Positions 4,541-59,413 of a DNA stretch of 64,000 nt are shown piece by piece (within the stretch, counting starts at the first letter, position 1; each line of letters starts with the position of its first letter). Below the pieces are notes generated by a model, which was given only the letters and a program-made list of their open reading frames with translations, was not told the origin of the DNA and did not search any database. The DNA is from Simmondsia chinensis (Eukaryota; Streptophyta; Magnoliopsida; Caryophyllales; Simmondsiaceae), in contig JAGTTD010000007.1 of the NCBI GenBank assembly GCA_018398585.1, positions 8,335,320 to 8,399,319 of the forward strand, in the 5' to 3' direction. Made by a program: the position numbers and the translations under genes.

Positions 4541-5032
4541 CTAGGAAACCCAAGTGTTGCCCCTTCTATTGATTGTGGTAGTTCTCGTGGTTACAAAATC
4601 TTCATCCCGCATTTTTCTACACTCCCATTCCAGCACCATGGCGTGGGCTTTGCTGACGGTCTGCTTTGGGTTGGCCCTCTCTCTCCTAAATATAGCAGCA
4701 TTTCTATCCTTCCAGATGTGCCAATAGAGGGCCACAAATCTTTCCAATTCATGATTCCCCTTCCTCGTTCTTTTTTCCTCTGCAATCCTGGATTGGGAGG
4801 GCCGTTGGTTTACCCATTGGGTAATCTTGGCCCGCTCCCACACTGCTTTAGCATGAGGGCAATTGAGCAAAAGATGAGATATGTCTTCTCCTCCCTCCCC
4901 ACACCACGCAAAGTGGGAATCCCAGCCAGGGATTCTCATGGCCATTTGGGAACCTGTGCCCAGGTAGTCATTAAGCACTTGCCACAGAAAAATCTTGATC
5001 TTCCGCTGGATGTTCAGGTCCCAGATCCACAT
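4541..5032 (-). pseudogene. LINE-1 zf-RVT zinc-binding region
   Basis: This 163-residue stretch matches the region between RT and RNase H in plant LINEs: an N-terminal IKIFLWQVLND motif, then CGEGGEDISHLLLNCPHAK with the spaced C...H...C pattern typical of zf-RVT, then VALYWHIWKDRNAAIF. It probably contributes nucleic-acid binding. It is separated from the RT C-terminal part by a short degenerate stretch (5033-5122). Confidence 0.88.
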
Positions 5033-5122
5033 AAACTCCCACCCACTCTTATCATCCTAGTTCAAATTATGAGCCATCCACGTGGCTGATTTCACACTGA
5101 AGGATACTGTGCTTGTGAAACC

Positions 5123-5620
5123 TCAGCATAGATGGTCCTCCATCATGGACTTAGGAATGGGGACTCCCAGGATGTCATTTTGCCGTTCTGGGGGAACGAT
5201 TCTTTCAAGTTTCTCTCTGTTCCATTCCCCGTTTTCAATGAAATCACCCACTTTCAGGGATAAATCGACCCTACCCCGGTCCCCTTCGAATCCATCGATT
5301 AAAGGCCCAGATGAAACCCACCAGTCATACCAAAAGCTGGCCTTGTTCCCATCCCCGATTCTCCATTTCAACCCTTTTCTTAAGATGTGTGTTGAGTCAA
5401 GGATGCCCTTCCAGGCCGGGGAGTCCAAACTCTTCCTCCCGTAGTCGAGGAGGGACATACCCTTAAGATATTTACTCTTCACACATCTTACCCACAAGTA
5501 GTCCTCATCCTTTAGGATTCTCCAACCAAGCTTACAGAGAGAAGCCTGTTTGACTGCCTCCATTTTTCTAAGACCTAGGCCTCCTACCCCTTTGGGTTTA
5601 CAAATGTTGTTCCATGCCAC
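5123..5620 (-). pseudogene. LINE-1 region between RT and zf-RVT
   Basis: 165 residues recognisable as the conserved plant-LINE segment after the RT palm: WNNICKPKGVGGLGLRK, ASLCKLGWRIL, a KWRIGDGNKASFWYDWW motif and PLID. Its biochemical role is not well defined. It lies between RT at 5741 and the zinc region at 5032, with a frame break on each side. Confidence 0.88.
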
Positions 5621-5740
5621 GATATTCAGCCCCTTCCTGCCGTCTTTGTTCCAGAAGAACTGGCGGCTAATTCTATCCCCCCTGCTTGCAGACTGATTTC
5701 AGAAGCTTAAAGCATTGCATAATATGACTCGGCATTGATT

Positions 5741-6634
5741 CTACCGCAGATTGTATGAGGGTATCCCTTCCAGCTTTGAAAGGTTACCCGCCTTCCAACG
5801 GGACACCCTAGTGCCCATCCTCGTAACAAGATCCCCAGCCACCTGAGAAAGGAAGCGCCTTGTGCCAAAGTCACACCCCAGGTATCTTCCCAGTGCATTA
5901 CTGACTGGGATTTCTAGAATGTCCCCTATCCTTTGTTTATGGCCTCTGTCCATATTCTTAGAAACAATAACTAGAGATTTCACCCTATTAACTTTCAACC
6001 CAAAGTCCTCACAGAATTGATCCACCACCCTTTGGAGTCTCTGAACAACCTCGATCTTAGCTTCGCAGAATTGCAGGCAGTCATCTACAAAGAAAAGACA
6101 AGGGATCGGTTTGCATCCTCTCGCTATTCGGATTCCTATTCCTGACTTCTTATCTTTACTTATCTCCTCCAGGTTTGCTGCCAGAACTTCAAGGCAAAGA
6201 ATGGACAAATATGGGGATAAAGGGTCCTCCTGTCTGAGACCCCTCGACGGGGTAAACCATCCCATTGGCTTATCATCAATGAGGACAGAGAAGGATGTGG
6301 AGGTTACACACTCCATCACCCATCCCACCCATTTCTCGTGGAACCCCAGATGTGAAAGAGTTTTTTTTCCCAAAAAGGCCCACTCGACCCTATCGTATGC
6401 CTTTTCCATGTCCAGTTTTGCAGCGGCCCAACCCAATCTTCCCTGCTTCTTCTTGAAACTTGCCATCAACTCATGTGCAATCAGGATATTATCTTGGATT
6501 GCTGTCCCTGGAACAAATGCGGCTTGCCATTGGCTCACTACTTTCGATAGGATTGGTTTTAACCTGTTCGCTAGAATTTTAGCGATGATCTTATACAAGA
6601 CATTACATAGGCTTATGGGCCTAAAGTGATTCAC
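5741..6634 (-). pseudogene. LINE-1 reverse transcriptase domain
   Basis: The 297-residue block has non-LTR RT motifs in order: NHFRPISLCNVLYKIIAK, AFVPGTAIQDNILIAHE, KLDMEKAYDRVEW (first catalytic aspartate), GLRQEDPLSPY (family GLRQGDPLSPY, G to E) and the catalytic box LFFVDD (family FADD). Both aspartates of the box are present. Upstream, the linker continues in another frame. This enzyme would copy LINE RNA at a nicked genomic target. Confidence 0.95.
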
Positions 6635-7137
6635 CGTTTGGGGTGCATCAACTTTAGGAATGAGAGTAATAAAGGTGTGGTTAACTTCCCGAAGGAGAGA
6701 GCCTCCCCTAAGGGTAGATCTGATGGCCTGGGAGATATCTTTTCCAATAACATCCCAGTAGTTCTGATAAGGAGGTTGTTATCCTCCTCTGAGATCTTAT
6801 TTCCTACCACGGATAAAGAGGGAAAATGGGGTCTGGATCCATTGGATCTAAACCTTACCTTAAACTCTCTAATGAAGGTATCTGCTATCTCAACTTTATC
6901 AGTGATGGACATGCCAATATCGTTTTTTAGTTCCATAATCCCTCTTCGCCTTCTCTCAGCAAGTACAGTGGCGTGGAAGAAGCTCGAATTTCTATCACCT
7001 TTGGTGAGCCATTCCTTCCTCCAATATTTCGCCCAATACTTATGATTAACAAACAGGAGTTTCTCCTGTTGCAAGATCAGGCGTTTAAGTTTCCGGTTTA
7101 ATTGGAGGTTGTTAGGACACTCCTCCAACAAGTCCAT
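6635..7137 (-). pseudogene. LINE-1 endonuclease-RT linker
   Basis: 168 residues with the diagnostic WLTKGDRNSSFFHA motif that precedes RT in plant LINEs, then a region with DFFxxEEI-like spacing leading to the RT start. It overlaps the RT open segment slightly in a different frame, showing a frameshift near 6632. The stretch 7138-7332 upstream is degenerate and joins it to the endonuclease. Confidence 0.85.
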
Positions 7138-7332
7138 AATGTCACGAATCTTAGACTCTTTTTTTTCAACCTTGGTCTTTAGATGCCCAAGAGAAAGTTC
7201 TTTGCACTATTTTAGGTTTCTCTTAATGTTCTTAAGTCTGTGGGTAATTTCAAACATTCTGGACCCCTTATGCTTGGTGGCCCAGGCATGCTTGATTAAG
7301 GACCCTGTAGTTTTAAACTTTGCTCAACCTGC

Positions 7333-8069
7333 CTAGAACCGGAATGAGGCTACTTTAGATGGCCCAGATTTGTCTGTGCACAGGAAGATCGGGGTGTGGT
7401 CCGAAACTGGACCAAATCCGTTATAAATGAAAGACTGAGGGAAGAGGCTGGTCCAAGCCGCATTAACCACGGCCCGATCCAGCTTCTCCTGGATAAGGGT
7501 GTCTAACAGACCTGGCCCATGTAAATTTCTAACCTGTCTATGGTAGTTCCACAAGATTAAGACCTGCACAAAACTCATTAAGTCTAGTATACCGTTGAGC
7601 AAGCGGTGGAGAGCCACCTGCTTTATCTGCCGGGCTCATCAATTCGTTGAAGTCACCAATCACACACCATGGGACATCACGGTGGGGAGCCTGGTTAACG
7701 AGAGTGTTCCAGAATCCATCTTTTTCATTTTCTTTTGCCGGGGCATAGATAAAGGAAACAACGCCCTTATTCCTACCTTCCAAATCCGTGACTACAGTGT
7801 GGGCTACCCTATGGTCATGGGTCACAATATCCACCTGGCACCTTGAAGAGTGCCATGCTAGCCATAATCCCCCAACATGATTAACCGTCGGGGGAATACT
7901 GACTTTGGTCAAATCCCAGTCTGGGTAGTACTTTCCTAACTATTTGCTCATTCGTTAATGTTTCTAGGATAGCCATTATGTCCGGCTTAAACTTTCAGAT
8001 AAGGCCCTTCAGTTCCTGATGGGCTGGCCCATGGGCCAAACCACGAATATTCCAGACAAGAATCCTCAT
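7333..8069 (-). pseudogene. LINE-1 apurinic-type endonuclease (EEP fold)
   Basis: The ATG at 8069 begins MRILVWNIRGL, the usual start of plant L1 ORF2, which decides the start. Conserved blocks follow across frame breaks: a short ETLTN block near 7950 after an in-frame TGA, GGLWLAW, FIYAP, GDFNELMSP and SDHTPIFL near 7385-7410. The asparagine, glutamate, aspartate and histidine of the EEP active site can all be placed. It would nick target DNA to start target-primed reverse transcription. At least two stops and one frameshift (near 7540-7615) break it. Confidence 0.9.
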
Positions 8070-15423: not shown

Positions 15424-15966
15424 TTTTAGGATTGTGTTATGAAAATATGGGTCGAAGCTATCTTGCAACAAAAAATAAAGTTTGAGAGAAACAGGAAATT
15501 GACACATGATATTTACGTGGAAAATTGTGAAACGAATCAAGGGAAAAACCACCGGAAAAAATCGAAGGATTTACTATTAAGGAGATGTTACAACCTCTCT
15601 CTAAATACAAGGAAAATACAACAACAGCTTTCTCTTGAAATAGGAGAATACACTCAAAAGAAGAAGAATAAGTACAGGAGAAACTAATTTTCTATTTTAT
15701 ACAAATTTGGGTTGAAAAATGTATATGTTATTTTTGGATGTTTGGAAACTAAGGAGGGAAGTTTAATTTATAAAAAAAAAAGTTCTTGTATTCCCTTCTA
15801 TAATTTCTCCTTGAATCATGTTACATCCATTATTTTTTTTTTAATAATCCATTTTCTTTTCCTCATTTTCTTGAATGTGTGGCATATTCCTCTCGCGCCC
15901 CCCCCCTCTCCCTCTTTCCTTTGCTTATTTTTGGCAAAAGCCATGTAATATAACTTTACTTCCACA
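15424..15966 (-). repeat. Copia-B 3' LTR
   Basis: Aligns along its length with 20783-21305. On the minus strand it begins TGTGGAAGTAAAG, just after the purine tract AAGTGGGAGAT, and ends at a mutated terminus (TTTTAGG on the plus strand instead of TGTTAGG). A C-run near 15900-15906 falls in a pyrimidine-rich stretch. Confidence 0.85.
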
Positions 15967-16709
15967 ATCTCCCACTTAAAGTCACTTTTGGTAATCTTTC
16001 AATCCTTTCAATACTTGCCAATTTCATGCAGCTTATATTTCCAATAGGCCATAAGAGGATCTATACCATATAAACTTATCAGTGTCGATTAGCCTTGTCA
16101 TGACATCTGCCAGGTTATCTCTGGTGTGAATTTTCTGCATATCCACACTCCCTTCGTCTACTACTTCTTGAACAAAATGATATTAAACTCCTAAGTACAG
16201 GAGAAACTAATTTTCTATTTTATACAAATTTGGGTTGAAAAATGTATATGTTATTTTTGGATGTTTTGAAACTAAGGAGGGAAGCTTAATTTATAAAAAA
16301 AAAGTTCTTGTATTCCCTTCTATAATTTCTCCTTGAATCACGTTATATCTATTATTTTTTTTTAATAATCCACTTTCTTTTCCTCATTTTCTTGAATGTG
16401 TGGCACATTCCCCCCCCCCCCCCCTTCTCTTTCCTTTGCTTATTTTTGGCAAAAGCCATGTAATATAACTTTACCTCCACAATCTCCCACTTAAAGTCAC
16501 TTTTGGTAATCTTTCAATCCTTTCAAAACTCTCCAATTTCATGCAGCTTATATTTCCAATAGGCCATAAGAGGATCTATACCATATAAACTTGTCAGTGT
16601 CGATTAGCCTTGTCATGACATCTGCCAGGTTATCTCTGGTGTAAATTTTTTGCATATCCACACTCCCTTCGTCTACTACTTCTTGAACAAAATGACATTA
16701 AACTCCTAT
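15671..16709 (-). repeat. 523-bp tandem duplication across the LTR/RNase H boundary
   Basis: AGTACAGGAGAAACTAATTT occurs at 15671 and again at 16194. The whole interval between is repeated with few changes: about 296 bp of 3' LTR, the purine tract and about 225 bp of RNase H 3' sequence. The second copy ends at CTCCTA near 16707 and continues into unduplicated RNase H. The event came after formation of the LTR. Confidence 0.88.
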
Positions 16710-17084
16710 GTGCTTTTTCCTGGAATGAAAGGCTGAATTTCTGGCAATGTGCAAGGCACTGTGACTGTCAGAATACACTTGAATCTTCTCTTGCTTATGC
16801 CCAAGTTCTTCCATTAACCTTTGAGTCCAAATTGCTTCCTTGCATGCTTGAGTAGCTGCCATATACTCAACCCCTATCGTAGACAAGGCCACAACAGTCT
16901 GTAACTTGGACACCCAGCTCACTGCTCTTTCTACAAGTGTAAACACATAGTCTATAGTAGATTTACGCTTATCAGGATCACTTGTATAATCTGAATCAAC
17001 ATATCCTTGGACAATAAATTCTTGTCCTCCATAACATGATGCAGCATCTGAGGTTCCTTTGATATATCTTAGGATCCTCTTCAC
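16698..17084 (-). pseudogene. pol: Copia-B RNase H
   Basis: 128 residues: LRYIKGTSDAA, GYVDSDYTSDPDKRKST (first acidic residue in DSD), YVFTLVERAVSW, STIGVEYMAATQACKE (glutamate), VYSDSHSALHIARN (aspartate) and FHSRKKHI. The acidic residues look intact. It would remove RNA template during replication. RT upstream is degenerate, and the C-terminus lies at the duplication breakpoint. Confidence 0.92.
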
Positions 17085-19711: not shown

Positions 19712-20706
19712 TTATACCAATAATCCTTTTTTTACGTGCCCTCTCTTGCCATAGTTGTAGCATTTGTCATTTTTCTTGCTTATTGACTTTGATGTAACAT
19801 TGTTGTGACTCCCACTAGAGCCATGTTTCGTTGATCTTCCTCTCGTCATCGATAGTGCCTCTACTTGCTTTGAGATTTCTGATCTATCTTCCTTGTTCTT
19901 ACGCCTAGATTCCTCTTCTAGAATAGCAGCTACAACATCATCGAAGATTAGGTCTGCAAGTACATTAGTTGTGATGTTGATGATGAGTTGATCATTCGAA
20001 TCGGGTAGACTTTGTAGTAGACGCTCTGCACATTCAGGTGCTGCTATTATGCAACCTAATGTTGTAAGTTGGGAAAATAACATATTCAGATTGTTAATAT
20101 GATTCGTCACCGAAGTGGATTCACTCATTCGAAGAGTGTAGAGTAGCAACAACAATGGACCTCAAGGGCTCCCGCATAAGCGGGGTCTGAGAAGGGTGAA
20201 TGCATACAGTCTTACCCCTTCAGGGTGTAACCCTATCGAGAAGCTATTTCCGAGAACCCCCAACCTTATAGGGTTGGCAATAGGAGGACTTCCCAGGAGG
20301 TTACCCATTCTGGTACTACTCTCGCCCAAACACGCTTAACTTTGGAGTTCTAATGGGATCCGAAAAGTGTAGAGTCTCCTCTTTAAAAATATCTTATTAT
20401 GAAGTGACTTGACCTCGTACAATTTGGTTAATGAATCCGAAATTCTTTGGCTTATTTCTTCTTTGCAACGGACGACAATACTGAATATGCCAATGCTATA
20501 TGCAAGTTGGCAATAATATTGTCATTCATCTCCTTCCATTTGGCATCAATTATCTCTACTAGTTTGTCTCCGATTGCTGCTAAGCAATTTTCCTTCCTCA
20601 AAACTGCCTTCACCTTCAATTTCCACAATGAGAAATTACTCCCATTAAACTTCTCAATTTCGAACTTTGCTACCATTATGTTAATGATAATTGCTCCTTT
20701 ACCCAA
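19712..20706 (-). pseudogene. gag: Copia-B gag, split by a 5S-headed SINE
   Basis: The N-terminal part (20452-20706) has KFEIEKFNGSNFSLWK, typical of Tnt1-like gag. The C-terminal part (19712-20155) has LRMSESTSVTNHINNL, RLLQSLPDS and a knuckle CYNYGKRGHVKKG, in which the second cysteine is tyrosine. The two parts are separated by the SINE and its target-site duplication. Gag codons read continuously across the duplicated 10 bp, so the SINE was added to an existing gag. A frameshift lies upstream of 20376. Confidence 0.88.
20145..20365 (-). mobile_element. SINE with 5S rRNA-derived head and Au-like tail (copy 1)
   Basis: On the minus strand, 20365 to about 20268 matches plant 5S rRNA from about nucleotide 31 onward, including AGTTAAGCGTG, GGGCGAGAGTAGTAC and ACCTCCTGGGAAGTCC, which cover the internal control regions. 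It continues into a tail with GGTTCTCGGAAATAGC, GACTGTATGCATTCACCC and GACCCCGCTTATGCGGGAGC, resembling Au-type plant SINE 3' regions, and ends in TTGTTGTTG. Exact 10-bp duplications AGTGTAGAGT (20135-20144 and 20366-20375) bound it. The first ~30 nt of the 5S head are missing, so it is probably 5'-truncated. Confidence 0.85.
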
Positions 20707-20782: not shown

Positions 20783-21305
20783 TGTTAGGATCGTGTTATG
20801 AAAATATGGGTTGAAGCCGTCTTGCAACGAAAAACAAAGTTTGAGAGAAACGGGAAATTGACACATGATATTTATGTGGAAAACTCGGAAACAAATCAAG
20901 GGAAAAACCATGGGCAAGGATAGAAGGATTTACTATTAAGGAGATGCTACAACAACTCTCTAAATACAAGGAAAACACAACAACAGCTTTTTCTCAAAAT
21001 AAGAGAATACACTTAAAAGGAGAAACTAATTTTCTATTTTATACAAATCTGGTATGAAAAACATATATGTGATTTTTGGATGTTTTGAAACTAAGGAGGG
21101 AGGCTCAATTTACAAGAAAAAAGTTCTTGTATTCCCTCTTGTAATTTCTCCATGAATCACGTTAAGTCCATTATTTTTTTTAATGATCCTCTTTCTTTTC
21201 CTCCTTTTCTTGAATTTGTGGCATATTCTCCCTCTTTCTCTCTCTTTCTCTCTCCTCCTTTTCTTGTTTTTGGCAAAAGCCACCTAATGTGACTTTACCT
21301 TCACA
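20783..21305 (-). repeat. Copia-B 5' LTR (523 bp)
   Basis: The plus strand begins TGTTAGGATCG next to the primer site and ends CTTCACA; both ends match the 3' LTR. A CT-rich stretch (about 21225-21262) and an AT-rich middle are shared. LTR divergence is clearly visible, so the element is not young. Confidence 0.87.
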
Positions 21306-48409: not shown

Positions 48410-49082
48410 GTAAAGGTTGGAGAAATAATCTATGATACAAGATACTTTCCAAATAAACTGGCGTTGTATATTATATTTTGATTTATTTAATATTATTCAC
48501 TTTCGAAATTAGATTATTGTAAACACCATCTGCATCACACGGGGACAAACTAGTTCATTTTTATAATCAAGAGTTTATCATGAACTCAAAGCACAATTTT
48601 TGCATTTACTTTCCAATTTATTACTAAAACGGTGCATATAATAGAATGCATAAACATGAACGATCAATGATTATTCCTACATTCATTTCTTAGTAAAAGC
48701 TCGAGCTATTCAATAGTCAGAACATCAAATTAAATATTTAGAAATAAGAAACAAATGCTTTTAAATTGGTATAAAACTTCAAAGTTTATGAATACATAAA
48801 AAAATGTTTTTTTTAGTATTTAATAAAATTTACTGACAATTTTAAAAACATAAATAACAACATCATAATCATATTGATGATTTTCAAAATCATGTTTGAA
48901 AAAGTAATTTTTATAAAAATATCCACAATACCAAACACAAGTAAAGATTTGCAGTTAACAGCTATCCTTAGACAAAGGAAAGTGAAAATTATTTTTTTCA
49001 TGAGGTCAAGCTTACCCCATTAAGGTTTACATCAGGAATGGTTACTCCCAAAATTTTGACCCCATACCATACATGCTCGTAG
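48410..49082. other. Non-coding spacer
   Basis: AT-rich, no long open frame, no recognised repeat. It ends in ATGCTCGTAG (49073-49082), probably the left target duplicate of SINE copy 2. Confidence 0.55.
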
Positions 49083-49247
49083 AACTCCAAAGAATAGTAC
49101 CAACACGCAAGCACCGAACCTCTTTAGAACTTCAAAGTTAAATATGCTTGGGCAAGAGTAGTACCAAGATCGGTGACCTCCTGGGAAGTCCTCATGTTGC
49201 ACCCCTCAGGTTGGGGGTTCTCGGAAATAGCCTCTCTTCAAGGTAAC
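49083..49247 (+). mobile_element. 5S-headed SINE, copy 2, left part
   Basis: 49087-49205 matches plant 5S rRNA nearly end to end: ACCAACAC, AGAACTTCAAAGTTAA, TTGGGCAAGAGTAGTACC and GACCTCCTGGGAAGTCCTC. It continues as GGTTGGGGGTTCTCGGAAAT and AGCCTCTC, the same tail start as copy 1. At 49248 Athila interrupts it; the tail goes on at 59285. ATGCTCGTAG before it and ATGCCTGTAG at 59389-59398 are probable target duplicates (8 of 10). Confidence 0.82.
49087..49205 (+). pseudogene. 5S rRNA-like sequence (SINE head)
   Basis: About 119 nt alignable to plant 5S rRNA over its full length, with changes in the 5' third and in the control region (ATATGCTTGGG for CGTGCTTGGG). It is single rather than in a tandem array and is joined to a SINE tail, so it is not a working 5S rRNA gene. 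Confidence 0.78.
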
Positions 49248-50717
49248 TGATGCATCTCATATTTACGCATCTATTAATTGTTATTTAAATTATTTTGCAC
49301 CAGTTTAATTATAGTTATATATTCATTTTGGCAATTTTTATGTTTTATAGGTTCGAAGATTAAAGTTCCACGAATTGTCAAATTTGGTGCAAATAAGATA
49401 AATTCGATGTGTAAACAATTAAATCATGTCAATCGAGATTCGGGACAAGAACATATAAGCCCAAACCCGTACCGGGCCCATCACGTAGGCCTATCATCTC
49501 TAGCCCAACCAGCTTCGGTCCAGCCCTGTTCATCACCCTCAAGCCCATCGGCACTAGCAGCCCAGCTCTGCGTTTTGGCCCAACCCAACCTTACTGTCAT
49601 CCTCCAGCTCATCTTCCCAGCCCAACCGACCCCAGCCCAGCATTAGCGTTCTCTTCACAGGCCCAGCTTCACCCGTGCTGGCCCATCATTATCTCACTCC
49701 AGTACAGCCCAACAGTCACTGACACCCCAGGCCGGTCATCGTCAGCCCAGACCGTAGGGTTTTGAGGAGCAATAGCAGCAGCATCGTGGAAAGAATTTAA
49801 ATTCATCAAGGGTGCTGTATTTTTTTTGTTCTGGATGGCACCGCCTCTTGCTCTTTCACAAATTTCTCCGTCTTTCTTTGTTCATTAGTTTAGTTTTTTG
49901 TTAAATTGGAAGGGGAGCAAAATTAGCATGAAGACCGACATGAGTTCGTTCATATCCTCCTTCACCGGTTCATCCTTGATGGAGAGCTAACTTGCTCTCT
50001 GGGGTTAGATGAAGTCTTAGCATTTACTTTTGTTTACTTTTAATTCAGATTAATTTGATTGTTTACATGAATAGCTTGGTTGAGATAAATACTTTGAAGT
50101 ATTATATTTTTATCGTTTATTCAATTGATATGATTATTAAGTTTGTAACCTTTTATCGTTGATGTTGATATTATAAATTAATTCTTTATGCTTGTAGCCT
50201 TAGGATTAATTAATCAAGCAATAGTATTAATCGACTTGTTAATTAAAGCCTATCGTCCCTATGCTTTAGTTAGATGGGGTCAATACGTAATAATTAACAA
50301 TACATTAGATAGAACATATTTTCCTTATGCTTTAGTTAGATAGGGTCAATACGCGATACTAATAACATTATCTTAGTAGGTTGAAGCTTGTATAATCCAC
50401 TACCCATTGTGACAATCAATAATCCCAAGTTAAAATTTAACGCAAAAATAATTGGTTAATGATGGATTCGAAACCCTGGGTTCCAATTTAATACACTTTT
50501 CAGCATAGAAGTATATTGCCTTAGTTTAATTTTCGTTTCTTTAGATTAATTAACACAAAAATCTCTCAGTTTTATTTAAATTAATTTAGATCATAGAATA
50601 ATTTCACGCACTCTGAGTCCCTGTGGTTTGACACTCTCTTGCTCTATACTATAATTTAGGTGTGTTTAGTAGATAGGGTTAAATATTAAATTTTGATAGA
50701 CGTAAAAAAACACATCA
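49248..50717 (+). repeat. Athila left LTR
   Basis: 1470 bp, near-identical in layout to the right LTR. Includes a C-rich segment (49460-49740, CCCAACC/CAGCCC repeats), ATTAGTTTAGTTTTT and two copies of a TTATGCTTTAGTTAGATNGGGTCAATACG phrase (50258 and 50327). Confidence 0.95.
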
Positions 50718-50723
50718 AGATTT

Positions 50724-50738
50724 TGGCACTGTTGCCAG
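50724..50738 (+). other. Athila primer-binding site (tRNA-Asp type)
   Basis: TGGCACTGTTGCCAG, six bases after the LTR. Athila elements typically carry TGGCGCCGTTGCCGG, so three changes are visible. Confidence 0.78.
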
Positions 50739-51020
50739 GGATTAGGCAACGTTCGTGATTTTATTTTTGTGATTCTCTTTGGTTTTTAATTTTTTTAAAT
50801 TGTTTTTAATTTTTATTGTCTCTTTCTTAAAAAAAAACATAAAAAATATATAAAATATTTTCTTTACTTTTCTTAAAAGGTTATTTATTTATTTATTTGT
50901 AAAGCATTATTCATCTTGTGATTTTCGTGTATAGGTACATTTTAGGATAGTTTATTATTTGTTCTTTTTTTTTTGTTAGTTTTAATTTGAGTTTGACTTG
51001 CTTCTCGTGGTTGTTTATTC

Positions 51021-52704
51021 ATGCACGGTCACCGCTCTTTGTCTCTTGACCTTACTAGATTCGACCCTGAAATTGAAAGGACCTTAAGAGACTTTAGAGC
51101 CCAACACCGTGCACAACCGCAATGGCTGATGAACAACAACCACGTCCCCTTATGGAGTATTTTACTCCCACCACATACACCTCACCTTCATGCATTAGAT
51201 TGCTACCGGTAGCCCATCAGTTCGAGCTTAAGCCACACAAATGCTTCCTTCATTCCTCGGCTTGGGTAATGAGAACCCGTACACACACTTGGACAGTTTC
51301 ATGGGGGTTTGTGCAACCTTTAGGATTCCTAACATTAGTGATGATGCCATATTACTTCGCCTTTTTCCTTTCTCTTTGAAGGATAAGGCTAAGTATTGGT
51401 TAGGCACCTTACCTAGTGGGACGATTAGTACTTGGACTCAAATGCAACAAGAATTTCTTAAGAAATTCTATTCCCATTAGTAAGACTAACACTGCTAGGA
51501 GAGCCCTTAACACTTTCGCCCGGCTCCCTACCGAGGAGTTTCACAAGAGTTGGGATAGGTTTAGGGAACTCTTACGAGCTTGTCCACATCATGCTATCCC
51601 TAAATAACAACTAGTCCAAAATTTCTATTATGGGTTAAATGAAAAGAGTCAACAAACTATTGATGCCTCATGTGGTGGTCAGTTCCTTAGGAAGAATGAG
51701 GATGAGGCGTGGGAATTGTTTGAATATTTGAATGAGAACTCACAACAAAATGTTGCACATGCACGTTTAAATGCTGCTAGGTTAAATAGAGGAGAAGTAC
51801 ATGAACTTGCTCACACTTCCATCTTAGATAAGAAAGTAGACTCTCTTGCCTCATTTGCGGAGCAGCTTACTTCCTTATTTAAGATGACCTTGACTCCCTC
51901 TACTATGCCTAATGTGTCTAATGTTCAAAACATGCATAGTATCTATTCTTCATGCTCTAGTGTCTCTCATTCTACACAAGATCTGCTTCACCTTTTGTTG
52001 AGTGGTCGGAGGAACAGGTTAATGCAGCCCAAGGATTCTCGAGGAACGATCCATACTCGAACACATAAAATCCGGGCTGGAGAAACCATCCAAACTTCTC
52101 CTGGGGGCAAGGAGGAGAAGGACAATTCGTGCCACAACAACACAATCCACGACCTCAACAATCTGGTATGCCACAACCTCTCGGTTTTCAACCGCAAGGG
52201 TATGCTTCTAACTACTCTCAACCTTCTAATTTGAGCTCCAATTCCAATTTTGAAGAGAAGGTCTTGAGTGCGCTGAAAGGTTTGGAAGCTAATTCCCAAC
52301 TCCTCCACTCCCATACACAATCGATCTCAAAGCTAGAAACCCAAATAGGTCAAATAGCTAAAACTTTGAGTAGGAGAGATGAGGGAAGGCTCCCTAGCCA
52401 AACCATAGAGAATCATAGGAACTGTGTGAGGCAAGACAATTATCCTCCCCATCATGAACAAGCAAAATCTATTGCAATGTTAAGAAGTGGGAAGGAGGTT
52501 GACGATGGGGTGAGTGCTGAGAGTGAAGTACCCATAAGTGGCGAGAGAGAAGAAAAGAGTGAGGAAAGAGAGAAGGAGACTGATAAGGTCATGCACTCTT
52601 CTTCCACTCCTAAGGCCTCTGATCTTCCTTCCTCATATGTACCTAGAGTGCCCTTCCCCCAAACTTTAGTTACACCACATCCAAATGGGAAGGACAAGAA
52701 GTAG
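51021..52704 (+). pseudogene. gag: Athila gag
   Basis: Successive open pieces in changing frames: an N-terminal start MADEQQPRPLMEYF (51122), a capsid core with NPYTHLDSFMGVC, LRLFPFSLKDKAKYWLGTLPSGTISTW and FLKKFY (51241-51480), WDRFRELLRACPHH (51540-51600), and a long C-terminal part with LSALKGLEANSQLLHSHTQSI and IAMLRSGKEVDDG (52240-52510). The LKGLE...LRSGK layout is typical of Athila. No CCHC knuckle is seen. Three or more frameshifts. Confidence 0.9.
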
Positions 52705-52713
52705 GAAGACATT

Positions 52714-53340
52714 TTGGAGACTTTTAGGCAAGTAAAGATAAACATTCCCCTTCTTGACGTAATTAAACAGATCTTGGCCTATGCGAAGTTTATTAAGGAC
52801 CTTCTGAACCAAAAAAGGCAATCTAGAGCACATCTGCCTAAAAAATTATTTTTAGCCGAGCAAGTGAGCTCTATTATGAAGTGTGAAATTCTAATTAAGT
52901 ACGCAGACCCTGGTGTCCCCACCATCTCTTGTTCACTTGGAGACTACCCTATTGATAAAACTTTACTGGACTTAGGAGCGAGTGTCAACATTATTCCGTA
53001 CTCGGTTTATGAGAAATTAGGTCTGGGAGAGTTGCAACCCACCATGGTGACCTTACAGTTAGCAGATAAATCAACTAGGATCCCCCGTGGTGAGCTGATT
53101 GACGTGTTAGTGAGAGTAGACAGAGCCTTGTTTTCTGCTGATTTCCTCGTGCTTGATATGGAACATTCTAGTCACTAGAAAAAGCATGTCCCTGTCATTC
53201 TAGGTCGGCCTTTCCTAGCGACGGCCAATGCTACCACTAATTGTAGATCTAGGGTAATGGATGTTACTTTTGCAAACATGACTAGGTTGAACATTTTTAA
53301 GGCTTCGTTGTAATCCACTAGTGAGGATGAGCTGGAGTGT
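52714..53340 (+). pseudogene. pol: Athila aspartic protease
   Basis: NIPLLDVIKQILAYAKFIKDL leads into the protease: CSLGDYPIDKTLLDLGASVNIIP, the DLGASVN active-site version used by Athila, then LGELQPTMVTLQLADKS, FLVLDMEH and, past a TAG at 53176-53178, VILGRPFLATANA. Active-site residues look intact; the C-terminal part is cut by the stop. Confidence 0.9.
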
Positions 53341-53346
53341 TTCTGG

Positions 53347-54616
53347 GTGGATGTTATTGATGATTTGGTTGACCAAACACTCGCCTCTGTCCTAGTTAGT
53401 GATTCCCTTGATCGAGCACTAGTATACTATTGTTCTAATGATGTTGAGATTGAAAATGATGTTAGAGAGATGAATGATTTGCTTGAGTTGAGGGCCCCCT
53501 CAGAGACTTGTCATTGGTTGTCAAAAATAGAAGCCTTACCTACGCTTTCGGATTCCCCTGCCTTGCCGTCCATAGTTTCACCACCCAAACTTGAACTTAA
53601 GTCGTTACCATCTACTCTTAAGTATGCTTTCTTAGGACCCGATGAGACTTTACCTGTGATTATCTCTTCTCAGTTGCCTGGGGAACACGAGGATGCATTG
53701 ATGATAGTACTTAGTGATCATAAGAGTGCCATTGGGTGGTCTGTTGCTGATTTGAAGGGTATAGACCCTTCCATTTGCATGCATATGATTTTTCTTAATG
53801 AGAGTGCTAGACCCACTAGAGAGATGCAAAGGAGATTAAACCTTAACATGAAGGAAGTGGTAAAGAAAGAGATTGTGAAATTGCTTGATGCGGGTATCAT
53901 TTACCCAATTTCTGATAATAGGTGGGTTAGCCCTATTCAGGTAGTCCCAAAGAAGTCGGGCATTACTGTGGTTCGGAGTAGTGATGAAGAGTTAGTGCCT
54001 ACTAGAGAGACCACCGGCTGGAAAGTGTGTATTAACTATAAGAAGCTTAACTTTGCCACTAGGAAGGACTATTTTCCTCTACAATTCATTGACCAGATTT
54101 TAGAGAGGCTAGCTGGTCATAGCTTTTACTGTTTTCTTGATGGATATTCAGGATAAAACTGGGTACCCAGAGGATCAGGAAAAAATGACTTTTACGTGCC
54201 CCTTTGGCACATTTACCTACCGTAGGATGCCATTTGGTTTATGTAATGCGCTCGCTACATTCTAGAGATGCATGATGTCTATCTTCTCTGGCATAGTAGA
54301 TAGATTTCTTGAGGTTTTCATGGATGATTTCTCTATTTTTGGACCTTCGTTTGATGAATGTTTGCATAATTTAAGGCTTGTGCTAAAAAGATGTGAAGAG
54401 ACCAATCTTGTTTTGAGTTGGGAGAAGAGTCACTTTATGGTTCAAGAGGGGATTGTATTGAGTCATAGAGTGTCCAAGAAGGGTATTGAAGTTGATAAGG
54501 CTAAGGTAGATCTGATTGCAAACTTACCCCCTCCCTCAAATGTGAAGCAAGTTAGATCCTTTCTAGGTCATATGCAGGTTTCTATAGGAGATTCATTAAG
54601 GACTTTGAGAAGTTAG
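53347..54616 (+). pseudogene. pol: Athila reverse transcriptase
   Basis: VKKEIVKLLDAGIIYPISDNRWVSP, VPKKSG, GWKVCINYKKLN and FIDQILERLAGHSFYCFLDGYSG (catalytic D) are in one frame (53347-54156). A shift and short loss follow, then FTCPFGTFTYRRMPFGLCNA in another frame, with a TAG at about 54262 where related elements have glutamine, then FMDDFSIFG (catalytic box intact) and FLGHMQ. The catalytic residues are present though the chain is broken. Confidence 0.92.
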
Positions 54617-55130
54617 CCAAACCATTGACTAGCTTGCTAGTTAAAGAAATATCATTTGAGTTTGATGAGTCTTGCTTAGAAGCTTTCCAAAAGCTTAGAT
54701 CATTACTTGTGTCGGCCCCTATTATGCAGCCACCTGATTATTCTCTCCTTTTGAAATTAGATGTGATGCTTCTGATTTTGCTATAGGTGCCGTCCTAGGT
54801 CAAAGAGTGAACAAAGTGCCTCATGTCATTTACTGTGCTAGTAAAACTCTTAATGATGCTCAACGCCATTACACCACCACTAAAAAGGAGTTGCTAGCTG
54901 TTGTGTTTGCTCTTGACGAGTTTCGTTCCTATCTTTTGAGGTCAAAAGTCATTATCTGTCCTGACCATGCTGCATTGAAATATTTGCTCTCAAAGAAAGA
55001 AATGAAACCTAGGCTCATTAGTTGGATTCTTCTACTTCAAGAGTTTAACATTGAGATTAGAGATAAGAAAGGTGCAGAGAATGTGGTAGTTGACCATCTC
55101 TCTAGGATTTTCTTTGAGCATCATGATCCA
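54617..55130 (+). pseudogene. pol: Athila RNase H
   Basis: FEFDESCLEAFQKLR, a degraded [14 protein letters not shown] (near 54770), then in one frame [38 protein letters not shown] (glutamate) and [15 protein letters not shown] (aspartate). The first aspartate block is in a different frame. After it comes the link to integrase (VVDHLSR). Confidence 0.9.
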
Positions 55131-56575
55131 TCTATTTCAATGCATGACTCTTTTCCCAATGAGCAACTTTTTGTTGTCTCCCATTCACGCGGCCCTTGGT
55201 TTGCAGATATTGTTAACTTTCTCGCCACGGGTACGATTCCATCTACTTGGTCTAAGCATGAAAAAGATAGGTTTTATTCTCAGGTAAAGTACTTTTATTG
55301 GGATGACCCTGACTTGTTTAAACATTATGCGGATCAGGTACTTCGTAGGTGTGTTCCAGAGTATGAATATCATAGCATTTTATCTTTTTGTCACTCATTT
55401 GCATGTGGAGGACACTTTGGGGGTCGTAGGACTGCTACAAAAGTCCTACAATGTGGTTTTTATTGGCCTACTCTGTTTAAGGATGCTCACGAGTTTTGTC
55501 TTGCATGTGAGCATTGTCAGCGCACATATGCATTGACACGTCAAGACATGATGCCTTTAAACCCCATTTTGATTGTGGAAATATTTGATGTTTGGTGTAT
55601 TGACTTCATGGGTCCGTTTCCCCCGTCCTTTGGGTTTGTTTACATACTCGTAGGGGTTGACTATGTGTCTAACTGGATTAAAGCTATACCTAATAGGACC
55701 AATGACCACAAGGTGGTCGTACAATTTGTCAGAGACCACATCTTTAGTTGTTTTGGTACCCTAGAGCACTCATTAGTGATGGTGGTAGTCACTTTATTCA
55801 CAGGTCATTTGAGGCACTTCTTAGGAAGTACTCGGTGCATCATAAGATTGCTGGCCCATACCACCCCAAAACTAGTGGTCAAGTAGAGCTTTCAAATCGT
55901 GAGATTAAGTCTATACTTGAGAAAACGGTTCATCCTAATAGGAAAGATTGGTCTCTTAGGTTGAATGATGCTCTTTGGGCTTACCGCACTGCCTATAAGA
56001 CTCCACTTGGTGTGACACCCTATAGGTTAGTCTTTGGTAAGGCGTGCCATTTACCGGTTGAGTTAGAACACCGTGCTTATTGGGCCACCAGGGCTTTGAA
56101 TTTTGACTTAAACCAAGCTAGATCTAACCAAAAACTTCAATTGTGTGAACTTGAGGAGTTGAGAAATGAAGCTTATGAGAATGCAAAGATTTATAAAGCT
56201 AAAACCAAGGCTTTTCATGATAAACATATTTTGAGGAAAACATTTGTTCCTGATCAAAAGGTTTGGCTTTTTAATTTTAAATTGCGTCTTTTTCCTTATA
56301 AGTTGAGGTCTAAGTGGGATGGTCCTTTTCTGGTTAAGCAGGTGTACCCCTCGGGTGCTATTGAGATATGCCACCCAAAAGATGGTCGTGCATTCACTGT
56401 AAATGGTCAAAGGCTTAAACCTATAGTTGAGTTGGATGGCATTGTTGATCGACAGGTTATTGAAGCCGTCTCTTTGGTGGACACCATAATTGGTACTTCA
56501 TCTTTGCTGGACTCATTGTGTCCGGCTGAAGGCGTAAAATTTAGCGCTCCTAGGAGGCAGCCTAGGTTTTGTTAA
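55131..56575 (+). pseudogene. pol: Athila integrase
   Basis: Zinc site: [18 protein letters not shown] and [10 protein letters not shown]. Core: [13 protein letters not shown] (first D), a frame change at about 55750, [11 protein letters not shown] (second D) and [14 protein letters not shown] (glutamate). Then WRTALKTPLG-like [36 protein letters not shown] and [10 protein letters not shown], the usual Athila C-terminus. Two frames, otherwise well kept. Confidence 0.93.
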
Positions 56576-57805
56576 TTCTTGTTTTTAGTTTAGTTTTTAA
56601 ATTAATTAGTTTCTTGGAGACTTATTTTCTCTCTTTTCAGGTTCATGTCCCAAGTTGAAGATGTCATATATAGATGTTCACGCCACCTTGTCAGGTTGTA
56701 TTGCTCTATCTCACCTATTTCTTGTGTTTTAATGATTTATGTTGTCGCATTGAGGACAATGCATGGTTTAGGTATGGAGGTGAGGCTCATTTGTATGTGT
56801 TCATTTTTTTGGTCAAATTTTTATAATTTTGAACATCTTTTGTGCATTTCGAGTGTGCATTATAACCGTTTAGCCAAGTTTTTCTTGATCGACGCGTATG
56901 TTAGGATGATAGTGAGATTAGCTGTCTTTTTTGTGCTCTTAATTCCATGAAATTAAATTATTCTACTTTATACTTGTTAGTGAGTATTGTCGATCAGTGT
57001 TGATATTAATAGGTTCTACTCATGCGGCTCACATATTCACTATGCATTGGACTTTCGTGTTGTGGAAAATCTGAAAATTTTGAGTAAACAACCCTATATA
57101 TCTTGAGTTTTGCAAGCCTGCCATATTGGCTTATCCTAATCCTTGCCTTTGATGTAATGAAAAGTACTGGTTGGTCAATGTCAATTGTAATATTGAAGTA
57201 AGTGTTATTAAAAAAAAAATTCCAAAAATGGATAGAAAATAAAGAGGAGACAAAAAAAAATGAAAAGAAAAAATAATAGAAGAAAAAAGGGGTTTCCTCC
57301 AAAAGAAAAAGGAAAAAGAAAAAGTGAAAATTAGTGTACCTTCATGATAAAAATGTCCTTCTTTTATCCTATACTGAGGTCAGAATGTTGTAAAATGGTA
57401 ACTCATATACCACTTAAAATTTCTCTATGTATAGGCATGTGTTTAGGTGATTCAATGGTGTAGGTGCACAAAACCTTTATATATTTGGTTGGAAGCGAGA
57501 ATATGAGGAGATTCTGTGACATGAAATCCTAATTACTTTCACTTATGCGCTTAAATTACTTGAGTAGTTCCTATTAGTTGATACAAGGTCAATAAAATTC
57601 TATGATGAGTTTTGAAGTTTAATCATCTAAATTTATGTAATTGGAGAATGCTCTAGATGATTTAATCTTGTCTTGAATCGTAATATAGGTGTTAATCTCG
57701 AAAAACTTGGTAAAGATTGGTATAGTTGGAGTAGTTGGTCACTTGAGTCGTTATGTCTATTCTATGTTTTGCTCGAGGACTAGCAAAGTTTAGGTGTGGG
57801 GATGT
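56576..57805 (+). other. Athila 3' non-coding region and polypurine tract
   Basis: About 1.2 kb. A 101-codon frame at 56645-56950 has no recognised domain. 57200-57330 is strongly purine-rich. No env-like ORF with clear transmembrane or signal sequence is seen, though some Athila elements carry one here. It ends with TTTAGGTGTGGGGATGT beside the right LTR, a good polypurine tract. Confidence 0.65.
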
Positions 57806-59279
57806 TGATGCGTCTCATATTTACGCATCTATTAATTGCTATTTAAATTTTTTTTTACCTGTTTAATTATAGTTATATATTCATTTTGGCAAATTTTATG
57901 TTTTATAGGTTTGAAGATTAAAGTACCGAGAATTGTCAAATTTGGTGCAAATAAGATAAATTCGATGCGTAAACAATTAAATCAAGCCAATCGAGATTAG
58001 GGACAAGAACATATAGGCCCAAACTTGTATCGGGCCCATCACGCAGGCCCATCATCTCCAAGCCAACCAGCTTCGGTCCAGCCCTGTTCATCACCCTCAA
58101 GCCCACCGACACCAGCAGCCCAGCTCTGCGTTTTGGCCCAGCCCAACCTCACTGTCATCCTCCAGCCCATCTTCCCAGCCCAACCGACCCCAGCCCAGCA
58201 TCAGTGTCCTCTTCACAGGCCCAGCTTCATCCGCGTCTGGCCCATCGTTATCTCACTCCAGTACAGCCCAATAGCCACCGACACCTCAAGCCCGTCATCG
58301 TCAGCCCAGACCGTAGGGTTTTGAGGAGCAATAGCAGCAGCACAATGGAGAGTATTTAAATTCATCAAGGGTTCTGTATTTTGGTTGTTCTAGACAGCAC
58401 CGCCTCTTGCTCTTTCTCAAATTTCTCTGTCTTTCTTTGTTTATTAGTTTAGTTTTTCGTTAAATTGGAAGGGGAGCAAAATTAGCGTGAAAACCGACAT
58501 GAGTTCATTCATCTCCTCCTTCACCGGTTCATCCTTGATGGAGAGCTAACTTACCCTCTGGGTTTAGATGAAGCCTTAGCCTTTACTTTTGTTTACTTTT
58601 AATTCGGGTTAATTTGATTGTTTACATGAATTACTTGGTTGAGATAAATACTTTGAAGTATTATATTTTTATCGTTTATTCAATTGATATGATTATTGAG
58701 TTTGTAACCTTTTATCGGTGATGTTGATATTATAAATTAATTCTTTGTGCTTGTAGCCTTAGGATTAATTAATCAAGCAATAGTATTAATCAACTTGTTA
58801 ATTAAAGCCTATCGTCGCTATGCTTTAGTTAGATGGGGCCAATACGTAATAATTAACAATACATTAGGTAAAACCTGTTTTCCTTATGATTTAGTTAGAT
58901 AGGGTCAATACGCGATACTAATAACATTATCATAGTAGGTTGAAGCTTGTACCCTAATCCACTACCCATTGTGACAATCAATAATCCCAAGTTAAAAGTT
59001 AACGCAAAAATAATTGGTTAATGATGAATTCGAAACCCTAGGTTCCAATTTAATACACTTTTCAGCATAGAAGTAGATTGCCTTAGTTTAATTTTCGTTT
59101 CTTTAGATTAATTAACACAAAAATCTCTCAGTTTTATTTAAATTAATTTAGATCATAGAATAATTTCACGCACTCTTAGTCCCTGTGGCTCGACACCCTC
59201 TTGCTCTATACTATAATTTAGGTGTGTTTAGTAGACAGGGTTAAATATTAAATTTTGATAGACGTAAAAAAATACATTA
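57806..59279 (+). repeat. Athila right LTR
   Basis: 1474 bp matching the left LTR. It ends CATTA where the left ends CATCA. GTAAC follows directly. Confidence 0.95.
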
Positions 59280-59284
59280 GTAAC

Positions 59285-59388
59285 AACCTGAAAGAGGAAG
59301 GCTGCATACATCCACCCCCCCCCCCCCCCTCCCCCGATGCTGCTTAGGCGGAAGCCCTTGGGGCACTGGGAATGTCGCTTTACTATAA
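59285..59388 (+). mobile_element. 5S-headed SINE, copy 2, right part
   Basis: Continues the tail interrupted at 49247: AACCTGAAAGAGGAAGGCTGCATACATCCACCC aligned with copy 1 CCCTGAAGGGGTAAGACTGTATGCATTCACCC, a C-run (about 59311-59335), then CTTAGGCGGAAGCCCTTGGGGCACTGGG, close to the end of Au-type SINEs. ATGCCTGTAG follows. Confidence 0.82.
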
Positions 59389-59413
59389 ATGCCTGTAGGT
59401 TTAAACTCCTAGT

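Follow-up and report, generated by a model that had tools for sequence, protein, structure and literature searches.

The window analyzed here, a 64-kb stretch of Simmondsia chinensis DNA, contains an ORF (19712–20155, minus strand) encoding the 3′ part of a copia gag that is interrupted by a short composite element on the same strand. This element, hereafter copy 1, measures 216 bp (20145–20360, minus strand) and consists of a 5S rRNA match and a tail enclosed by a target-site duplication of 15 bp. The low-coordinate copy of the duplication, CGAAGAGTGTAGAGT, lies at 20130–20144 and the high-coordinate copy, CGAAAAGTGTAGAGT, at 20361–20375 (both read on the plus strand); they are identical at 14 of 15 positions. 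The initial annotation had placed the element at 20145–20365 within an exact 10-bp duplication inside copia gag. The gag site proved correct, whereas the duplication is longer, at 15 bp with one mismatch, the 10 bp lying within it, and it moves the high-coordinate limit of the element to 20360.

When copy 1 and one copy of the duplication were removed, flank frame 0 of the rebuilt empty site was open throughout and read as copia gag. The 3′ gag piece (PF14223 on 19712–20143) lies directly behind the insertion, and its first residue corresponds to position 88 of the Retrotran_gag_2 profile (PF14223, E = 3.4e-13). Thus, a foreign element entered copia gag and left a long duplication, in the manner of non-LTR elements. 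The 41-amino acid gag piece on the other side of copy 1 gave no Pfam match, being too short or decayed, and there are stops in the gag frame further upstream of it, indicating that the copia element around copy 1 is itself decayed. Elsewhere in the window, two adjacent copies of ∼520 bp (15669–16711) are 94.9% identical and overlap sequence matching the copia LTR region at 20785–21305 (15426–15966 at 83% and 16199–16481 at 85%); we read them as an LTR end of the same copia element, either rearranged or in tandem.

Rfam cmscan of the window reported 5S rRNA (RF00001) at 20272–20382 on the minus strand with 47.0 bits, compared with a gathering score of 38. By our reading, the first ∼26 positions of the model fall on flanking sequence, and good agreement starts from GATCCCAT. 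The head of copy 1 (20271–20360, minus strand) therefore corresponds to 5S rRNA nucleotides ∼31–119, with box A, the intermediate element (IE), and box C. As the reference for the head, we used a presumed plant 5S sequence with presumed limits of the three boxes. Over nucleotides 31–119, 79 of 89 positions of copy 1 are identical to this reference, with 11/11 for box A, 6/6 for IE, and 9/11 for box C. These data agree with the 5S rRNA stretch, including the internal promoter region, that had been proposed for the minus strand. Nucleotides 1–30 of the 5S rRNA are absent from copy 1, which would fit incomplete reverse transcription.

The 126-nt tail of copy 1 (20145–20270, minus strand) was delimited from the sequence, from its likeness to the tail of a second copy described below, and from its likeness to a presumed TS/RTE-type 3′ end. 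Behind the end of the 5S match, a few variable bases are followed by a 24-nt linker, AGGTTGGGGGTTCTCGGAAATAGC (20243–20266, minus strand), and by sequence with a predicted CCCCGC/GCGGG hairpin that runs to the terminal TTGTTGTTGCT. Copy 1 is short and non-coding, with a Pol III-type head and a LINE-type tail between target duplications, as is general for SINEs.

A second copy, overlooked in the initial annotation, was found 29 kb from copy 1 on the opposite (plus) strand, where it is split by a gypsy-type LTR retrotransposon. Its 5′ piece (49077–49247) carries the 5S head (RF00001 at 49098–49198, 46.6 bits; 5S end at ∼49205) and the linker (49208–49231), which is identical to that of copy 1. 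Both copies thus exceed the Rfam gathering score and contain the promoter boxes of a SINE3-type head as judged against the reference 5S sequence, to which copy 2 is identical at 8/11 positions in box A, 5/6 in IE, and 9/11 in box C. The head of copy 2 is 84% identical to copy 1 over 116 nt (E = 2.5e-30), a match that spans 5S and linker and breaks off at 49248, where the LTR retrotransposon starts.

The LTR retrotransposon (49248–59279, plus strand) was recognized by its LTRs and by its RNase H and integrase domains. The LTRs (49248–50717 and 57806–59279) are 93.5% identical over 1472 columns; the 5′ LTR terminates in CA and the 3′ LTR in TA. A 5-bp duplication, GTAAC, flanks the element at 49243–49247 and 59280–59284. 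Directly behind the second GTAAC, the SINE tail resumes in order at 59285 and continues to ∼59380, forming the 3′ piece of copy 2 (59285–59380, plus strand). Its local alignment to the tail of copy 1 scored 24.5, with a maximum of 15.5 among 5000 letter shuffles; when the expanded C run in this piece was masked, the score was 19.5 and the shuffle maximum 13.5. Because GTAAC stands on both sides of the LTR element and the tail resumes behind it, copy 2 is a SINE that was later split by the LTR element. The C run itself (15 residues, 59315–59329) is absent from copy 1 and is likely a later expansion. The gypsy-type element, with its 1.47-kb LTRs at 93.5% identity, gives a minimum age for copy 2.

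Copy 2 has a probable target-site duplication of its own. On the 5′ side, TACCATACATGC (49065–49076, plus strand) has a TTTT run 8–11 nt upstream, and on the 3′ side, TACTATAAATGC (59381–59392, plus strand) adjoins the tail end. The two are identical at 10 of 12 positions, a level that 47 of 4000 random pairs reached, and the 5′ end of copy 2 is uncertain insofar as the start at 49077 rests on this weak duplication. Just 5′ of the 5S head, the 13 nt TAGAACTCCAAAG (49080–49092) are identical to part of the 5S sequence of copy 1. This likeness hints at a dimeric head, with further 5S sequence in front of copy 2, but that reading was rejected: the similarity of 48961–49094 to the reference 5S sequence is at chance level, its score being reached by 1679 of 3000 shuffles and 464 of 942 window stretches.

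The two copies have the same order, from 5S through the 24-nt linker to the same tail, with the same 5S-to-tail junction. In the best aligned block, 135 of 170 positions are identical (the alignment contains one surplus base at the join), and both differ from the reference 5S sequence at nucleotides 39, 48–49, and 79. Comparison of the flanks of copy 1 and copy 2 gave no match, and copy 2 holds 5S sequence 5′ of the point at which copy 1 starts. Given the unmatched flanks, the opposite strands, the additional 5S sequence of copy 2, and the shared junction, linker, and 5S differences, the two loci require a minimum of two retropositions from a single composite source. An alternative would be a one-off chimera that does not replicate as a family, produced when reverse transcriptase switched templates from 5S rRNA to the RNA of a LINE or SINE; comparable chimeras of other small RNAs are known. 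A junction, a linker, and 5S differences common to two independent insertions make this very unlikely as an account of the copies, and such a chimera could instead have been the origin of the SINE source gene. Two unrelated sites with a common junction therefore indicate a retroposed family, the evidence for which consists of two dispersed copies, both from one 64-kb window. The recurrence of the junction in an independent copy lends support to the earlier proposal that the element belongs to a chimeric SINE family of plants that has a 5S head and inserts by target-primed reverse transcription.

We also looked for further members. A profile built from copies 1 and 2 was searched with nhmmer (--max); because of its origin, its E-values for these two copies prove nothing. 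A candidate third copy at 2628–2691 (E = 0.005) was taken as a chance match, with no recognizable 5S on reading and none in Rfam. Outside the window, a distant blastn search for SINE relatives in plasmids and phages gave no match, nor did a search for four SINE sequence patterns in viral contigs. Three stretches of genome contigs that matched a single pattern were attributed to chance, as Rfam found no 5S in them. These searches covered bacteria, archaea, phages, viruses, and plasmids and have no bearing on the spread of the family in plants.

In plants, the retrotransposon known to carry 5S promoter sequence is Cassandra, a TRIM, and the two units might therefore be solo LTRs or fragments of it or of some other LTR element whose LTRs include a 5S promoter. 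Cassandra is described as an LTR element with a PBS and a PPT and with its 5S core in the middle of the LTR (PMC10853983). In contrast, no LTR pair surrounds either unit here. The only 5S matches at the Rfam cut-off in the 64 kb are the two described above, 29 kb apart and on opposite strands, so that no pair of 5S-bearing LTRs encloses a unit, which argues against Cassandra. Copy 1 starts within the 5S sequence, lacks TG...CA ends, and ends in TTG repeats, its limits being set by the 15-bp duplication, and in both copies a SINE-type tail follows the 5S sequence. We consider a Cassandra-like origin extremely improbable, as the initial annotation had argued. That annotation had also named two contrary outcomes beforehand, a 5S sequence and tail joined once only and an enclosing LTR pair; neither was seen within the window.

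The tail bears on the type of SINE and on its putative LINE partner. For comparison, we used a presumed TS/RTE-type tail. The tail of copy 1 aligns with this reference from GGAAA to TTGTTGTTG, and none of 3000 shuffles or 1259 window stretches scored as high; the TTG repeats of TTGTTGTTG are then followed by CT. Copy 2 aligns over the first 68–72 of the 101 nt of the reference only, the last part lying in the C run, and its 3′ end, AATGTCGCTT, is a degenerate TTG repeat at best. Its score was matched by 1 of 1256 window stretches when the whole copy was used and by 0 of 1259 with the tail alone.

The tail had been described as Au-like, which holds in part only. The tail carries a GACCCC...GGG hairpin block that may resemble the conserved 37-bp 3′ Angio-domain of the Au/Angio-SINE superfamily, as judged against a presumed domain sequence. 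The body of the tail may be Au-like. The 3′ end, however, is TTG of the TS/RTE type and not the T2–5 of Au. Au SINEs also have tRNA heads, unlike the 5S-headed copies found here, and ARAGORN found no tRNA genes in the window, a search that would miss a decayed tRNA head. The TS SINE of tobacco has a tRNA head as well, and it differs in this respect from the copies described here.

Ohshima (2013) reports that Au SINEs end in (T)2–5, that TTG repeats form the ends of tobacco TS and of plant RTE LINEs, that TS has ∼100 nt in common with its LINE partner, RTE-1_STu, and that (A)n ends occur in 224 of 233 plant L1 families. The SINE described here would resemble TS in having ∼100 nt at its 3′ end that close with TTG repeats and may be shared with an RTE LINE; the sequence likeness is to the presumed reference tail. 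A second clue comes from the target sites. According to PMC13295347, RTE insertions in legumes have a duplication that begins with TA and is preceded, ∼10 nt upstream, by a T-run (the Tn-TA signature). A T5 run (sense; 20385–20389, minus strand) lies 10–14 nt upstream of the copy 1 duplication, and both copies have a run of at least four T residues 7–15 nt upstream of the duplication, as do 5.9% of window positions. The duplication starts with TA in copy 2 only; that of copy 1 starts with A after G. With two sites, and a range of −15 to −7 chosen after looking at both, the spacing gives modest support for RTE. The same paper describes legume RTE-associated SINEs that end in Tn and whose LINEs end in (GTT)n; a TTG end is therefore not a rule for RTE-dependent plant SINEs, and ends alone do not fix the LINE partner. 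Taken together, the TTG end and the T-run that precedes both duplications by ∼10 nt suggest a LINE partner of the RTE clade, as in TS SINEs.

No RTE LINE was identified within the 64-kb window. ORFs resembling a LINE remnant occupy 4541–7912 on the minus strand, with a PF00078 reverse transcriptase domain on 5741–6634; by our reading, this remnant may be L1-like. Its presence would suit mobilization of the SINE by a LINE outside the RTE clade, such as one of the L1 clade. The SINE terminates in TTG instead of the A(n) expected of L1, Ohshima (2013) ties TTG to TS and plant RTE, and the T-run spacing resembles that of RTE insertions, leaving an L1-type or other partner as an unlikely alternative to RTE.

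Our results make it highly probable that the two copies represent a plant SINE family with a 5S rRNA-derived head, of SINE3 type with a type 1 Pol III promoter, and a TS/RTE-type 3′ tail. Neither copy 1 nor copy 2 contains an internal T4 run, and from this and the promoter boxes we infer that Pol III would transcribe the SINE from its internal 5S promoter, the RNA continuing through the tail for want of an internal TTTT terminator. From the tail and the target sites, an RTE-clade LINE would then be expected to recognize the TTG-ending 3′ part of the SINE RNA and to insert a copy by target-primed reverse transcription, producing a long target duplication.

Among known systems, the closest analogue in design is Ped-1 of the springhare, which combines a 5S rRNA head with a partner of the RTE clade (BovB; PMC3747384). 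Ped-1 comes from a mammal, no likeness of the tails is expected, and the same design was presumably reached independently. The SINE3 class as a whole (zebrafish, Lepidoptera, and fruit bats; AfuSINE3 of Aspergillus) also has a head derived from 5S in which box A, IE, and box C are present; its described hosts are animals and fungi, and the comparison with the copies reported here covers the head.

5S-headed SINEs are described from fish, mammals, Lepidoptera, and Aspergillus; for plants, a 2022 review derives SINEs from tRNAs and a 2023 guide calls nearly all of them tRNA-derived. In the accessible portions of open-licence PMC texts, including the best 15 of 215 matches in one listing, we found no 5S-headed SINE of plants. 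The consulted passages of PMC10886601, PMC10853983, PMC9033089, PMC3747384, PMC11490119, PMC5063351, PMC8010984, PMC13295347, PMC6387171, and PMC10741241 contain none, and those of the Cassandra and TRIMp3 papers make no mention of a plant SINE3. Whether the copies belong to the first SINE family of plants with a 5S head (SINE3 type), arisen independently when a TS/RTE-type SINE swapped its tRNA head for 5S and convergent with Ped-1, we regard as an evenly balanced question.

If this is true, the SINE would represent a plant RTE-type tail whose head was exchanged, and elements of the sort proposed to have supplied Cassandra LTRs with their 5S promoter would exist in plants. Kojima (2024) mentions a speculation in which Cassandra originated through the entry of a SINE3 into an LTR, and Maiwald (2024) cites, for animals, promoter acquisition by SINEs. 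A SINE3 lineage in plants would make the SINE3-to-Cassandra idea testable.
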